Shown piece after piece: positions 19,447 to 55,059 of a stretch of 64,000 bases of DNA. Origin of the DNA: Curtobacterium sp. UNCCL20 (GTDB taxonomy: Bacteria > Actinomycetota > Actinomycetes > Actinomycetales > Microbacteriaceae); the NCBI RefSeq assembly GCF_900101675.1, contig NZ_FNKG01000001.1:434001-498000 (forward strand), read 5' to 3'. A model generated the notes under the pieces. The model saw nothing but the letters and a program-made list of their open reading frames with translations, searched no databases and had not been told where the DNA came from. The stretch's first letter is position 1; every line of letters begins with the position of its first letter. The position numbers were made by a program, and so were the translations under genes.

Positions 19447-19511
19447 GCCGTCACGTTAGGCCCGGGGTGCTGTGCGAGGGAGGCCGCGGCGATGCCTCCC
19501 TCGCAGAGCGC

Positions 19512-20024
19512 TCAGTTCGTGCGGTCGGCGAACCCGTCCGGCAGCTCGCTCGGCGCGACCGAGACGACCGCCTCGTCGTCGGCGCCGACGTACTCGAAGA
19601 GGGTGATGCGCGCGAACTCGGGGACGACGTAGATCGGGTAGGTCGGGCCGGCGTCACGGTACGCCCGCATCTCGTCGAGGTGCTCGTTCTGGAACAGCAC
19701 GGTCTTCGAGCCGTCCTGCTCGATCCACTGCGGGAAGAAGATCGTCCCGTGCAGGCGACGCTTGCCCGGCAGGACGTTCACCACGACGCTCGTGCCGGTC
19801 GGTTCGTTCCACGACACCTTGTAGACGTCGTCGTCGAGCTGGACGAGGTCGACGGTCTGGTCCTTGACCCAGCGGCCGCCGACCATGCCGGTGTGGATCC
19901 GGTAGTCGATCGTTGTCGCGTTCTTGACGTACATCTCGTACTGCCAACCGTTGGCGTACGTGTAGATGAACCGGTGTCCGACGATGCCGGAGAGGTCCTG
20001 TGGTGGGTCGATGTCCTCAGTCAT
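19512..20024 (-). CDS. padC: phenolic acid decarboxylase
   Basis: 170 residues, the full length of bacterial phenolic acid decarboxylases, which convert ferulic, p-coumaric and caffeic acids to vinyl phenols. Diagnostic stretches are [53 protein letters not shown] and [16 protein letters not shown]. These include the conserved Tyr, Arg and Glu residues of the active barrel. Transcribed divergently from a MarR gene, which probably senses phenolic acids and represses it (in many bacteria the regulator is PadR instead). A likely detoxification trait for life on plants. Confidence 0.95.
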
Positions 20025-20032
20025 CCTTTGAT

Positions 20033-20073
20033 TTTGTCACCAAACTGATTTTAGTGCAAACACATGCGATACT
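20033..20073. promoter_or_regulatory. shared padC/marR regulatory region
   Basis: The 55-bp divergent spacer is AT-rich. It holds the dyad TTTGTCACCAAA (20033-20044) and a nearby TTTTAGTGCAAA half-site. On the plus strand GATACT (20068-20073) ends six bases before the MarR ATG, so that mRNA is probably leaderless. A regulator bound to the dyad would affect both genes. Confidence 0.55.
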
Positions 20074-20079
20074 GGCCGC

Positions 20080-20520
20080 ATGAGTGAGCGTGCCGCGAGT
20101 CTGAGCCACCTCCTCGGCCCGCTGCGCCGGAGTCTCCTCCGCGCCGCCCAGGGAGCCGGTGACCTGCCGGACATCCCGGACGCACAGATCGAGCTGCTGC
20201 GGACCCTGGCGCAGTCCGGCGGTGCGACCCCCGGCGCCCTGGCTACCGAACTTGGCCTGGCGCGGTCGACGGTGAGCAACCTCGTCAAGACCATGGCGGC
20301 GAGCGGTCTCGTCGACCGCAGCCTCAGCGACAGTGACGGCCGGAGCACGGTCCTGTCGCCGTCCCCGGCCGCCCTCGCCCTGCTGGACCGGTACGACCGC
20401 GCGAGCGCGACGCTGCTCGACGAGGTGTTCGACCGACTCTCCGCCGACGAACGCGCCCGGATCGACAGAGCACTGCCGGTGCTGCAGCGGCTGCGCGACG
20501 AACTCGGCCGCCGCGCCTGA
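20080..20520 (+). CDS. MarR family regulator
   Basis: 146 residues with the MarR winged helix in the middle (GATPGALATELGLARSTVSNLVKTMAASGLVDR, wing DSDGRSTVLSPS) and dimerisation helices at both ends. Divergent from padC with a dyad between them, so the natural hypothesis is phenolic-acid-responsive repression of padC and itself. Confidence 0.88.
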   Translation: MSERAASLSHLLGPLRRSLLRAAQGAGDLPDIPDAQIELLRTLAQSGGATPGALATELGLARSTVSNLVKTMAASGLVDRSLSDSDGRSTVLSPSPAALALLDRYDRASATLLDEVFDRLSADERARIDRALPVLQRLRDELGRRA

Positions 20521-20576
20521 CCGAGGACTACCCGTCCGCTAGGGTCGTCGTGTTCGGCACTCCGGGGGGATGACAC

Positions 20577-21416
20577 GTGTACGCGACGCAGCACCACCTC
20601 AGGGAAGTCCTGCCGTCGGACATCCGTCGGATCCACCTCGTGACCGGCCCGCAGTCGCAAGCACGACTCGACTTCACCGCGCCACTCCTGCGCCCGCACC
20701 GCGCGCTTGTCGAGCATCATCGTGTGGCGCTGGAGTCGCCGGCCTCGGCACCGCTGCTCGCCGCTCTGGTATCAGGGCTCCCCGCACGTGACCACGCGAT
20801 CGTCGTGATCACTCGCGGTGGCGGCGACCTCAGCATCTTCGACGACCCGGCCGTGGTCGACGCCATCCGCATGTCGATCCTCCCCGTCGTGACCGCCCTG
20901 GGACATACGTCGGACTCGACCCGCTCCGACGAAGTCGCCGACGCGAGCCTGCCCACGCCGAGTCTGGCGGGCGCCGAGCTGCGGCGACTCCTCGCTGCCC
21001 AGTACCACGAGCGTGTCCGGACCGTGCCGCCCGCACCCCGACCGACGCCGACTGCGGCCGCGGCGACCCCACCGACTCCGGTGGCTCCACCCAGTCCCGC
21101 ACCGCTGTTCCCGATGCGGCCCGCCGGTCTCGCGGGCACACCCGCTGCGCCCGCCCACTGCGGCACCTACGGCACGTCTCCACGTCGTTCGAACAGCCTG
21201 GGGACCGCCGCGCTCGTCCTCGGCATCATCTCGATGGTCGCGTTCGGTGGCTTCGGCGTCGGTGCACTCGTCGGCTTCGTCCTGGGCATCGTCGCCGTCC
21301 GACACCGCCCACGCACCGCAGCGGTCTGGGGGATCGTCCTGAACGGACTGTGGCTGCTCGGGGTCGCGGCGTGGATCGGGCTCGTGGTCGCTCTGGGGAG
21401 TGGCCCCCAGAGCTGA
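20577..21416 (+). CDS. exonuclease VII large subunit-like domain fused to a membrane domain
   Basis: 279 residues. Residues about 15-135 match the catalytic core of the XseA large subunit: DIRRIHLVTGPQSQARLDF, VVITRGGGDLSIFDDP, PVVTALGHTSDSTRSDEVAD and TPSLAGAE. R80, H110 and D113 fall in the RGGG and GHxxD motifs that carry active-site residues. The N-terminal OB fold and the long C-terminal coiled coil of true XseA are absent. A Pro/Ala linker (150-190) leads to two hydrophobic segments (about 209-241 and 247-272) like a DUF4190 domain. A membrane-tethered nuclease core is not a layout I know. GTG start with GGGGGA seven bases upstream. Stands alone. Confidence 0.8.
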   Translation: MYATQHHLREVLPSDIRRIHLVTGPQSQARLDFTAPLLRPHRALVEHHRVALESPASAPLLAALVSGLPARDHAIVVITRGGGDLSIFDDPAVVDAIRMSILPVVTALGHTSDSTRSDEVADASLPTPSLAGAELRRLLAAQYHERVRTVPPAPRPTPTAAAATPPTPVAPPSPAPLFPMRPAGLAGTPAAPAHCGTYGTSPRRSNSLGTAALVLGIISMVAFGGFGVGALVGFVLGIVAVRHRPRTAAVWGIVLNGLWLLGVAAWIGLVVALGSGPQS

Positions 21417-22054: not shown

Positions 22055-22402
22055 ATGCCCAAGCAGGAGACCGAGATGCTCAAGGGCATCCTCGAGGGGA
22101 TCGTCCTCGCCGTGCTCGTCGGCCGACCGGCCCACGGGTACGAGATCACCGCCTCGCTCCGGGAGCAGGGCTTCAGCGACATCGCCGAAGGCACCGTCTA
22201 CGCGCTGCTCGTCCGCATCGAGCAGCGCGGCTTCGTCGACGTCGAGAAGGTCCCGTCGGAGAAGGGCCCGCCGCGCAAGGTGTTCAGCCTGAACGCCCGC
22301 GGCCAGGAACAGCTCGACGGCTTCTGGGCGGCGTGGACGTTCCTCTCCACCCGACTCGAGCAGCTCCGGAACCACACCGACCACACCAACGGACAGGACT
22401 GA
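22055..22402 (+). CDS. PadR family transcriptional regulator
   Basis: 115 residues, a short PadR protein that is mostly the winged helix (ILEGIVLAVLVGRPAHGYEI, EGTVYALLVRIEQRGFV, wing with GPPRKVFSL). ATG with GGAGG eight bases upstream. Heads a four-gene operon with a DUF1048 protein and a two-component ABC exporter. PadR-DUF1048-ABC is a recurring drug-efflux arrangement. Confidence 0.92.
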   Translation: MPKQETEMLKGILEGIVLAVLVGRPAHGYEITASLREQGFSDIAEGTVYALLVRIEQRGFVDVEKVPSEKGPPRKVFSLNARGQEQLDGFWAAWTFLSTRLEQLRNHTDHTNGQD

Positions 22403-22404
22403 TC

Positions 22405-22815
22405 ATGGGCATCTCGCTCTCGGACATCACGACCAAGCTCATCGGCGACAAGAGGCGCTGGAAGCAGTACAAGGCCCGCACGGCATCGCTGCCGACGAGT
22501 CACCGCACCGCCGTCGACGGCATCGAGCGGTACCTCATGTACACCGGCCCGAGCGACGGCGAGCAGTTGATGCGCATGCTCGACGACCTCGCGGACCTGT
22601 TCGAGCAGAGCGCGACGGACGGCACGAGCGTCCGCACGGTGGTGGGCGACGACCCGATCGCCTTCGCCGAGGAGTTCAAGGCCAACTACGGCCTCGGCTC
22701 GTGGCTCAGCAAGGAGCAGCAGCGGCTCGTCGCCGCGATCGACGAGGCGGACGAGGCCGACGAGGCCGACAAGGCCGACGGCCACGAGACCCCGACGGGA
22801 GGCGACCCCGCATGA
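22405..22815 (+). CDS. DUF1048 family protein
   Basis: 136 residues, helical and acidic, starting two bases after the PadR stop and overlapping the ATPase gene by ATGA. It has the DUF1048 pattern (LSDITTKLIGDKRRWKQYKAR, LPTSHRTAVDGIERYLMY). The C-terminal 25 residues are an acidic repeat (DEADEADEADKADG). Role unknown, but such genes almost always accompany PadR-controlled operons. Confidence 0.88.
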   Translation: MGISLSDITTKLIGDKRRWKQYKARTASLPTSHRTAVDGIERYLMYTGPSDGEQLMRMLDDLADLFEQSATDGTSVRTVVGDDPIAFAEEFKANYGLGSWLSKEQQRLVAAIDEADEADEADKADGHETPTGGDPA

Positions 22816-23603
22816 CCATAGCGATCCGGGTCCGAGGGCTCGAGAAGTCCTTCGGCGACCTGCACGTCCTCCGTGGCGTCGACCTCGACGTCGAGGGCGG
22901 CACCGTGTACGCCCTGCTCGGCTCCAACGGCGCGGGCAAGACCACGACGATCCGGATCCTCGCCACCCTCGCGAAGGCCACTGCGGGCTCCGCGACCGTC
23001 GCCGGCCACGACGTCGCGACCGACCCCGGTGCGGTCCGCGAGGCGATCAGTCTCACCGGCCAGTTCGCCGCGGTCGACGAGGTCCTCACCGGCCGCGAGA
23101 ACCTCGTCCTCGTCGCCCGGCTCCGGCACCTCCCGAACGCCGGCCGCATCGCCGACGACCTGCTCGCCCGGTTCTCGCTCACCGACGCCGGTGGACGTCG
23201 CGCCGGCACCTACTCGGGCGGCATGCGACGACGGCTCGACATCGCGATGAGCCTGATCGGTGACCCGTCCGTGGTGTTCCTCGACGAACCGACGACCGGC
23301 CTCGACCCCGAGGCCCGCCTGGAGGTCTGGGACGCCGTCCGCTCCCTCGCCGCGAGCGGCACCACCGTCCTGCTCACCACGCAGTACCTCGACGAGGCCG
23401 AACAGCTCGCCGACCGGATCGCGATCCTGCACGAGGGCCGCATCATCGCCGACGGCACCCTCGCCGAACTGCAGCGACTGCTCCCGCCCGCGGAGGTCGA
23501 GTACGTCGAGAAGCAACCCACACTCGAGGACGTCTTCCTCGCCGTCATCGGACACGGCTCCGGTGACACCGACACCGCTGCGCACCAGAAGGAGGTCGCG
23601 TGA
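22812..23603 (+). CDS. ABC transporter ATP-binding protein (DrrA-like)
   Basis: 263 residues. Walker A GSNGAGKTT, signature YSGGMRRRL, Walker B VVFLDEPTTGLD and a Q in place of the H-loop histidine (LLTTQYLDEAE), a substitution common in the DrrA/daunorubicin-resistance branch. ATGA overlap upstream and GTGA overlap downstream with the permease. Probably powers efflux of a drug or lipid. Confidence 0.92.
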   Translation: MTIAIRVRGLEKSFGDLHVLRGVDLDVEGGTVYALLGSNGAGKTTTIRILATLAKATAGSATVAGHDVATDPGAVREAISLTGQFAAVDEVLTGRENLVLVARLRHLPNAGRIADDLLARFSLTDAGGRRAGTYSGGMRRRLDIAMSLIGDPSVVFLDEPTTGLDPEARLEVWDAVRSLAASGTTVLLTTQYLDEAEQLADRIAILHEGRIIADGTLAELQRLLPPAEVEYVEKQPTLEDVFLAVIGHGSGDTDTAAHQKEVA

Positions 23604-24364
23604 TGTCCGCTCACCCCGTCCACGACACCGTCGTCCTGACCGGTCGCTCCCTGAAGCACGTCCTGCGGAGCCCCGACACGATCATCACGACCGCCGTGAT
23701 GCCCATCGCCTTCCTGCTGCTCTTCGTGTACGTCTTCGGCGGCGCGATCGACACCGGCACCACGTCGTACGTCGACTACCTGCTGCCCGGCATCCTCCTC
23801 ATCACGGTCGCGTCCGGCGTCGCGTACACCTCGTACCGCCTGTTCCTCGACCTGCAGGCCGGCATCGACGAACGCTTCCGTTCGATGCCGATCGTCCGCG
23901 CAGCGTCGCTCTGGGCGCACGTGCTGACGTCCCTCGTCGCCAACACCGTGTCGGTGACGGTGGTGGTCGGCGTCGCGCTGCTCATGGGGTTCCGGAGCAG
24001 TGCCGGCATCGGCGCGTGGCTGTCCGTCCTCGGCATCCTGGTGCTGTTCACGCTCGCGCTGACCTGGATCGCGGTGGTCGCGGGCCTGTCGGCGAAGTCG
24101 GTGGACGGTGCGAGCGCATTCTCGTACCCGCTCGTGTTCCTGCCGTTCATCAGCTCGGCGTTCGTCCCGACCGACACGATGCCGGCTCCGGTCCGCTGGT
24201 TCGCGGAGCACCAGCCGGTGACGTCGATCGTGAACTCGATCCGGGCGCTCTTCGTCGGGCAACCGCTCGACGCCGACCTGTGGGTCGCGCTCGCCTGGTG
24301 CGTCGGGATCCTGCTCGTCGCCTTCGGCGCCGCCACCCTCATCCAGCGACGCCGCATCCGGTGA
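23600..24364 (+). CDS. ABC-2 type transporter permease (DrrB-like)
   Basis: 254 residues with six hydrophobic segments and the ABC-2 layout (ITTAVMPIAFLLLFVYVFGG, YLLPGILLITVASGVAYTS, FLPFISSAFVPTDTMP). GTG 23600 overlaps the ATPase stop; ATG 23603 is equally possible, and AGGAGG lies upstream of both. Last gene of the operon, followed after a few bases by hairpin copy 4. Confidence 0.9.
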   Translation: MMSAHPVHDTVVLTGRSLKHVLRSPDTIITTAVMPIAFLLLFVYVFGGAIDTGTTSYVDYLLPGILLITVASGVAYTSYRLFLDLQAGIDERFRSMPIVRAASLWAHVLTSLVANTVSVTVVVGVALLMGFRSSAGIGAWLSVLGILVLFTLALTWIAVVAGLSAKSVDGASAFSYPLVFLPFISSAFVPTDTMPAPVRWFAEHQPVTSIVNSIRALFVGQPLDADLWVALAWCVGILLVAFGAATLIQRRRIR

Positions 24365-54222: not shown

Positions 54223-55059
54223 GTGCCCGTCGCGGTGACGTGCCGGGTCCTGCAGGCCTCACCATCGGGCTATTACGAGTGGCGCTCCCGTCGCCCGTGT
54301 GAGCGTGATGTCGACGACGCGCTTTTGGTCGACCGTATCCGGGTCGTCCATGCCCGCTCCCGCGGCACCTACGGCGTCCGGCGTGTGCATGCGGAACTGG
54401 TCCTCGGACAGCGGTGCCGGATCGGTCACGGTCGTGTCGAGAGGCTGATGCGGATCGCCGGCTTGCAGGGCGTGCACCACCGGAAGTGGCGCACTGGCGG
54501 GGCGGGTCGGTTGCCGGCGGTGTTCCAGGACCGGGTGAAGCGGGTGTTCGTCGCGGACGCTCCCGACAAGCTCTGGGTCACTGACATCACCCAGCACCGC
54601 ACCGGCGAGGGGTGGGTGTATTGCGCGGCCGTGATCGACGTGTTCTCCCGCCGCTGCGTGGGCTGGTCGATTGCGGATCACCTCCGCACCGAGCTCGTCG
54701 TCGACGCGGTCCAGATGGCCACCTGGCGTCATCAGCCCACGGGAACCATCGTCCACTCGGATCGTGGAGCGCAGTTCACGTCCTGGCTGTTCGGCAGCCG
54801 GCTCCGCGAAGCCGGGCTCCTGGGATCGATGGGGCAGGTCGCGTCCGCGTATGACAACGCGCTGATGGAGTCGTTCTTCGGATCGATGCAGATCGAGCTC
54901 CTCGACCGATGCGACTGGCCAACCCGTGCGGACCTGGCGTCGGCGATGTTCGAGTGGATCGAAGCGTTCTACAACCCCACTCGCCGCCACTCCGCCCTGG
55001 CCTACTACTCACCCATCGAGTTCGAGAATCTCTACAACGCCGCCGAAACCGCGGCATGA
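54223..55059 (+). CDS. IS3 family transposase, orfB
   Basis: 278 residues from the first possible start; the open frame extends back to the slippery site. The rve integrase core has D121 in WVTDIT, D180 in HSDRGAQF and E216 in NALMESFFG, with 35 residues between the last two, the DD(35)E pattern. The N-terminal HTH_21 region has RSRGTYGVRRVHAEL. Normally made as an OrfAB fusion. Confidence 0.93.
   Translation: MPVAVTCRVLQASPSGYYEWRSRRPCERDVDDALLVDRIRVVHARSRGTYGVRRVHAELVLGQRCRIGHGRVERLMRIAGLQGVHHRKWRTGGAGRLPAVFQDRVKRVFVADAPDKLWVTDITQHRTGEGWVYCAAVIDVFSRRCVGWSIADHLRTELVVDAVQMATWRHQPTGTIVHSDRGAQFTSWLFGSRLREAGLLGSMGQVASAYDNALMESFFGSMQIELLDRCDWPTRADLASAMFEWIEAFYNPTRRHSALAYYSPIEFENLYNAAETAA

Follow-up and report, generated by a model that had tools for sequence, protein, structure and literature searches.

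We analysed a 64,000-nucleotide stretch of the Curtobacterium sp. UNCCL20 genome (contig NZ_FNKG01000001.1, positions 434,001 to 498,000; here called the window), in which one gene encodes a catalytic core of the type found in XseA, the large subunit of exonuclease VII (ExoVII), joined by a linker to a membrane domain (Table 1). Its open reading frame (ORF) begins with GTG, is free of internal stops in translation and encodes 279 amino acids. The GC fractions at the three codon positions (0.754/0.575/0.818) are those of a coding-like frame, the third-position value lying below the 0.85 to 0.95 of neighbour genes measured in frame. Searches over 5.8 billion proteins, which scored only those candidates that had short words in common with the query (8000, 3601 and 3415), gave two full-length relatives of this protein (P0001): P0002, which is metagenomic and 96% identical, and P0003 from Curtobacterium sp. 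L1-20, which has the same architecture and is 59% identical by BLASTP and 61% identical in the alignment.

Table 1. Features of the fusion gene and its surroundings, in window coordinates
Feature	Position	Strand	Basis
Fusion gene: XseA-type core, Pro/Ala linker, membrane domain	20577..21416	+	ORF; PF02601; full-length relatives P0002, P0003
Probable ribosome-binding site, GGGGGG	20564..20569	+	Read from sequence, 7 bases 5' of GTG
XseA-type catalytic core, residues 1-146	20577..21014	+	Profile match, residues 10-134
D32 codon, aligned with XseA D155	20670..20672	+	D in 55/55 canonical cores
R80-G83 (RGGG) codons, aligned with XseA R205-G208	20814..20825	+	Each in 55/55 canonical cores
G109-H110-T-S-D113 codons, aligned with XseA G237-D241	20901..20915	+	G, H, D each in 55/55 canonical cores
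Pro/Ala-rich linker, residues 147-203	21015..21185	+	17 Pro, 12 Ala in 57 residues
Membrane domain, residues 204-279	21186..21413	+	Three predicted helices
Gene for phenolic acid decarboxylase, oriented divergently from the MarR gene	19512..20024	-	PF05870, E 5.1e-78
MarR-family regulator gene, 56 bases upstream of fusion	20080..20520	+	PF12802, E 2.4e-14
Approximate insert relative to relatives, between NmrA-like and DUF4126 genes	19505..21414	.	Homology ends, gene order

The XseA-type core and its presumed active site

The family PF02601 (Exonuc_VII_L) matched residues 10 to 134 of the fusion protein well above its gathering cut-off (E = 5.5e-19; 69.2 versus 35.9 bits), spanning only profile positions 8 to 137 of 315, and the NCBIfam model for xseA, TIGR00237, gave 70.7 bits, below its full-length equivalog cut-off of 180. 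This indicated that the domain is genuine and that the protein is not a full XseA. At E <= 1, PF02601 was the only Pfam family found in the whole fusion, with no OB fold and no other domain. Since the core begins at about residue 10, the N-terminal OB fold of full-length XseA is missing, and since the match stops at profile position 137, so are the XseB-binding coiled coil and the C-terminal domain. These results agree with an initial annotation of this DNA, which had described a 279-residue protein carrying the RGGG, GHxxD and TPS motifs of XseA (here RGGG at 80-83, GHTSD at 109-113 and TPS at 127-129) and lacking both OB fold and coiled coil.

The register of the core was read residue by residue from a phmmer alignment of the fusion with Escherichia coli XseA (PDB 8txr; E = 4.4e-7), in which D32 pairs with D155, R80 with R205, H110 with position 238 and D113 with D241. 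The 8txr chain has Ala at position 238, and the entry is titled ExoVII(H238A). We take R205 and D241 of XseA to be catalytic; R205, H238 and D241 were reportedly identified as the catalytic residues by Poleszak et al. in 2012. Among 55 canonical cores, 19 alignment columns were at least 95% uniform, and 14 of these are kept by P0001, P0002 and P0003 alike, including D32, R80 to G83, G109, H110 and D113. Of the five not kept by all fusions, two are the V and G of VQG, and the others are P16, E91 and D118, the last being D in P0001 and P0002 and E in P0003. Conservation fell off in less uniform columns, with 18 of the 62 at 50 to 95% uniformity and 5 of the 52 below 50% kept. This pattern indicated that the changes spare the presumed catalytic residues, all four of which are retained in the fusion core; for D155, one article terms D155A a catalytic-domain mutation (PMC11077951). 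In addition, the solved XseA (8txr) was the best structural match of the predicted model of the core, which has the XseA core fold; no different fold was found.

Membrane domain, host XseA and distribution of the fusion

The linker, whose Pro/Ala character had been correctly noticed at first, is the least constant part of the protein: 19 of 48 aligned residues are identical between P0001 and P0003, with 22 gap columns, compared with 100 of 146 in the core and 45 of 76 in the membrane part. The stronger conservation of the two ends suggests that both the core and the membrane domain are under selection. The initial annotation had also proposed a two-helix DUF4190-like membrane domain. The membrane segment was confirmed, but the low-confidence model predicts three helices (207-222, 227-243 and 245-274), and DUF4190 (PF13828) was not matched by the whole fusion at E <= 1 or by its C-terminal piece at E <= 10. 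The label derives from P0003, which has a weak PF13828 match (E = 9.2e-4; 19.4 bits, below the cut-off of 35) and whose UniRef name is DUF4190-containing. Two other loci in the same genome carry similar modules (46% and 47% identity), and small Pro-rich membrane proteins of the DUF4190 type share the C-terminal hydrophobic module with the fusion. The usable relatives of this module (6 of 10 frames) have Pro/Gln-rich or other N-termini and, unlike the fusion, no XseA core was noticed in them. A literature search on DUF4190 found no paper. Basic residues stand at positions 203-204 and 242-246, and acidic residues are absent from position 196 onward in the window protein, while P0003 carries a single one, D244. 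Under the positive-inside rule, the placement of the basic residues around the helices suggests that the core faces the cytoplasm.

The genome has a single match to PF02609 (XseB), at G000:C6:1488346-1488495, and this adjoins a canonical XseA encoded in a 439-aa frame; no XseB adjoins the fusion gene, as had been stated initially. Because the canonical pair lies about 1 Mb away, the fusion gene is an addition and not a replacement. A tree of 60 rows (3 fusions, 2 fragments and 55 canonical cores), which took in 7 of 27 XseA loci from other members of the genus and 11 of 12 from other members of the family, separated the fusions from all other rows by a branch of length 4.2, with a program warning about long branches. 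Accordingly, the tree did not support an origin as a duplicate of the host's own XseA. P0008, a 422-aa protein from an ENA contig, scored best among the canonical relatives of the P0003 core (E = 5e-7). This full-length XseA relative is unusual and carries GHLRD and EEVAD motifs; it stands on a long branch and is not grouped with the fusions.

Full-length copies were rare in all genome sets. The sets share genomes; with stringent thresholds, and with scoring restricted to the top candidates of each genome, diverged copies could have escaped detection. In the genus, 65 of 66 genomes had a match at E <= 0.001, and in the family 21 of 299 had one at E <= 1e-11; in both sets the full-length match was in the organism's own genome only. 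A core profile found only this genome among 398 family genomes (E <= 1e-16) and 396 order genomes (E <= 1e-15), and among 394 class genomes (E <= 1e-14) it added one 454-aa frame, the length of a canonical XseA. Across 80 phylum genomes, 32 had a PF02601 match at E <= 1e-5, and a solitary second core occurred in this genome only. The 48 of 80 without a match suggest that XseA is patchy in the phylum. The initial annotation had suggested a survey of related genomes for the same fusion; beyond P0002 and P0003 from the protein searches, no full-length copy was found in the other genus, family and order genomes searched.

Several candidates for further solitary cores were set aside. In G792, a 278-aa frame turned out to be a normal XseA truncated where the contig ends. 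P0006 (259 aa) and P0007 (129 aa) were interpreted as fragments of a normal XseA, less surely for the short P0007. Weak matches to residues 46-152 in genus genomes G042, G047 and G048 were taken as chance; they fall mostly in a 241-residue frame that lacks RGGG and GHxxD and, by our reading, resembles a transcription regulator. G795 has a weak partial PF02601 match (30.7 bits), and a fourth match in the fusion's own genome, on C4, covers profile positions 160-274 (23.1 bits); both are below the cut-off. Neither A1 nor P0003 had a relative in scans of genome_contigs. No phage or viral_contigs entry matched, and the two plasmid matches, each annotated as exodeoxyribonuclease VII large subunit, cover 20%; a phage or plasmid gene was rejected on these grounds.

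A variable slot that holds a MarR-type regulator

In the window, the roughly 2 kb between the NmrA-like and DUF4126 genes is occupied by the decarboxylase, MarR and fusion genes. Seventeen stretches were fetched for comparison, 14 of which have the DUF4126 gene (L066-L078 and L082), and none of the 17 matched the fusion at E <= 1e-8. In comparison with L066, L067 and L068, homology ends at 19497, 19504 and 19469 and restarts at 21415, 21424 and 21422, respectively; these relatives have 135 to 139 bases between the homology ends, and L069, L074 and L078 have 6 to 82. In 10 of the 14 stretches, no more than about 205 bases separate the NmrA-like and DUF4126 matches; in the other 4 (L070, L071, L073 and L077) the distance is 1.3 to 2.8 kb. 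The other material in these four suggests that the slot may see repeated gene exchange. In L071 and L077 a match resembling short-chain dehydrogenases/reductases falls within the slot. The decarboxylase-MarR pair occurs in the remaining three stretches (L079-L081), where it is not accompanied by the core.

Because the fusion gene lies on the same strand as the MarR gene and closely behind it, co-regulation with phenolic stress is possible. The two genes could be co-transcribed, and the fusion may be linked to the MarR gene and to phenolic stress. At the left edge of the insert, an inverted repeat (19469-19509; 16 nt, 94% complementary, 9-nt gap) may act as a terminator or belong to the junction. 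A second variable block, with PadR, DUF1048 and ABC transporter genes (22055-24364), adjoins DUF4126; it is present in 9 of the 14 DUF4126 relatives (only in part in L072) and unmatched in L075-L078 and L082. Farther away, GC content is lower (0.64 to 0.68) from 52 kb to the window end, a region that includes an integrase ORF (54223-55059), of IS3 type by our reading (rve, HTH_21).

Possible functions of the fusion protein

According to PMC5684230, ExoVII is an assembly that includes parts for DNA binding and parts that serve as a scaffold. Like XseA (PF02601/TIGR00237; 8txr), the fusion has the core fold, the residues aligned with D155, R205, position 238 and D241, and the three motifs; unlike XseA, it has no detected OB fold, coiled coil or C-terminal domain and no adjoining XseB, its VQG is changed, three residues after RGGG are absent, and a membrane domain has been added. 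The fusion is a rare domain combination and a variant of the ExoVII catalytic unit. The reading that we favour, tentatively and at somewhat less than an even chance, is that it is a minimal, membrane-held ExoVII-type nuclease. No longer joined to an OB fold or a coiled-coil/XseB scaffold, the Rossmann-like catalytic core would be tethered to the cytoplasmic face of the membrane by the flexible Pro/Ala arm and the hydrophobic helices, and the ExoVII set D32, R80, H110 and D113 would hydrolyse phosphodiester bonds. Its substrate might be single-stranded DNA (ssDNA) ends that come near the membrane, for example in incoming DNA or in DNA set free during stress, with the anchor taking over the positioning role of the OB fold and scaffold by keeping the core close to its substrate. 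This catalytic activity, the ssDNA substrate and the physiological role are inferred. The further proposal of a minimal ExoVII class, in which the anchor replaces the OB fold, coiled coil and XseB and the lone core works on DNA at the cytoplasmic face, trimming or destroying it, is one that we hold with more reserve.

Several points weigh against a membrane-held nuclease. Model confidence is low to moderate (mean predicted local distance difference test [pLDDT] 55.5 over the full length and 68.9 in the core), residues 113-128 are poorly predicted (pLDDT < 50), and the end of the structural match pairs residue 120 with 242 where the sequence register pairs 113 with 241, so that the match to XseA is at the level of the fold only. 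The V and G of VQG, present in all 55 canonical cores, are changed, as are P16 and E91, and three residues are deleted after RGGG. The OB fold and coiled coil are missing; according to two articles (PMC5684230, PMC11077951), the OB fold of E. coli XseA binds DNA and the coiled coil binds XseB, inactivating any XseA determinant that ExoVII function requires, XseB binding included, causes ciprofloxacin hypersensitivity, and a mutant in the OB-fold DNA-binding residue F63 behaves like a deletion. Moreover, with two diverged sequences known and a branch of 4.2, function may have shifted.

These same losses and changes would suit a core that has become a binding or sensing module, one whose XseA pocket binds nucleotides or the ends of DNA at the membrane and which passes on a signal or interferes with the cell's own XseA/XseB, and the resemblance of the C-terminal module to small Pro-rich membrane proteins of the same genome and family points the same way. 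However, the four presumed catalytic residues were kept through a very long branch although binding alone would not obviously need them, and no recognisable signalling partner adjoins the gene; we consider such a module rather unlikely. Less likely again is a phosphodiesterase that uses the ExoVII active site on RNA, oligonucleotides or nucleotides. It would account for active-site residues that are kept while the OB fold and the nearby VQG are gone, but there is no positive sign of another substrate, and the best solved fold is ExoVII itself. A chance fusion that has no function under selection and travels as a passenger with an accessory insert is improbable: full-length copies are confined to 1 of 66 genus genomes and to this genome in the family and order searches, and the slot is variable, but P0003 keeps the architecture and both ends at 61% identity while its linker drifts, as under selection, and the metagenomic P0002 is full length.

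A defence gene was also considered and rejected, since the fusion protein matched none of the families of PADLOC-DB 2.0.0 at E <= 1 and the matches of MarR to CRISPR-associated regulators look like generic helix-turn-helix similarity. Of the membrane-tethered nuclease first proposed for this gene, then, the XseA-type core, the catalytic residues in register and the membrane segment stand, whereas it is a hypothesis that the protein cuts DNA or serves competence, defence or an envelope function. Taken as a whole, our results favour an ExoVII-type active site, functional now or until recently, on the cytoplasmic side of the membrane.

The significance of the fusion is limited by its rarity, and its activity is a prediction. 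No membrane-fused ExoVII core was described in the titles or abstract openings among the literature matches listed. If the membrane-held nuclease is real, an ExoVII active site would have moved to the membrane, and a natural core of about 146 residues, with its presumed active site and neither OB fold nor scaffold, would make the question of a minimal ExoVII catalytic unit directly testable.
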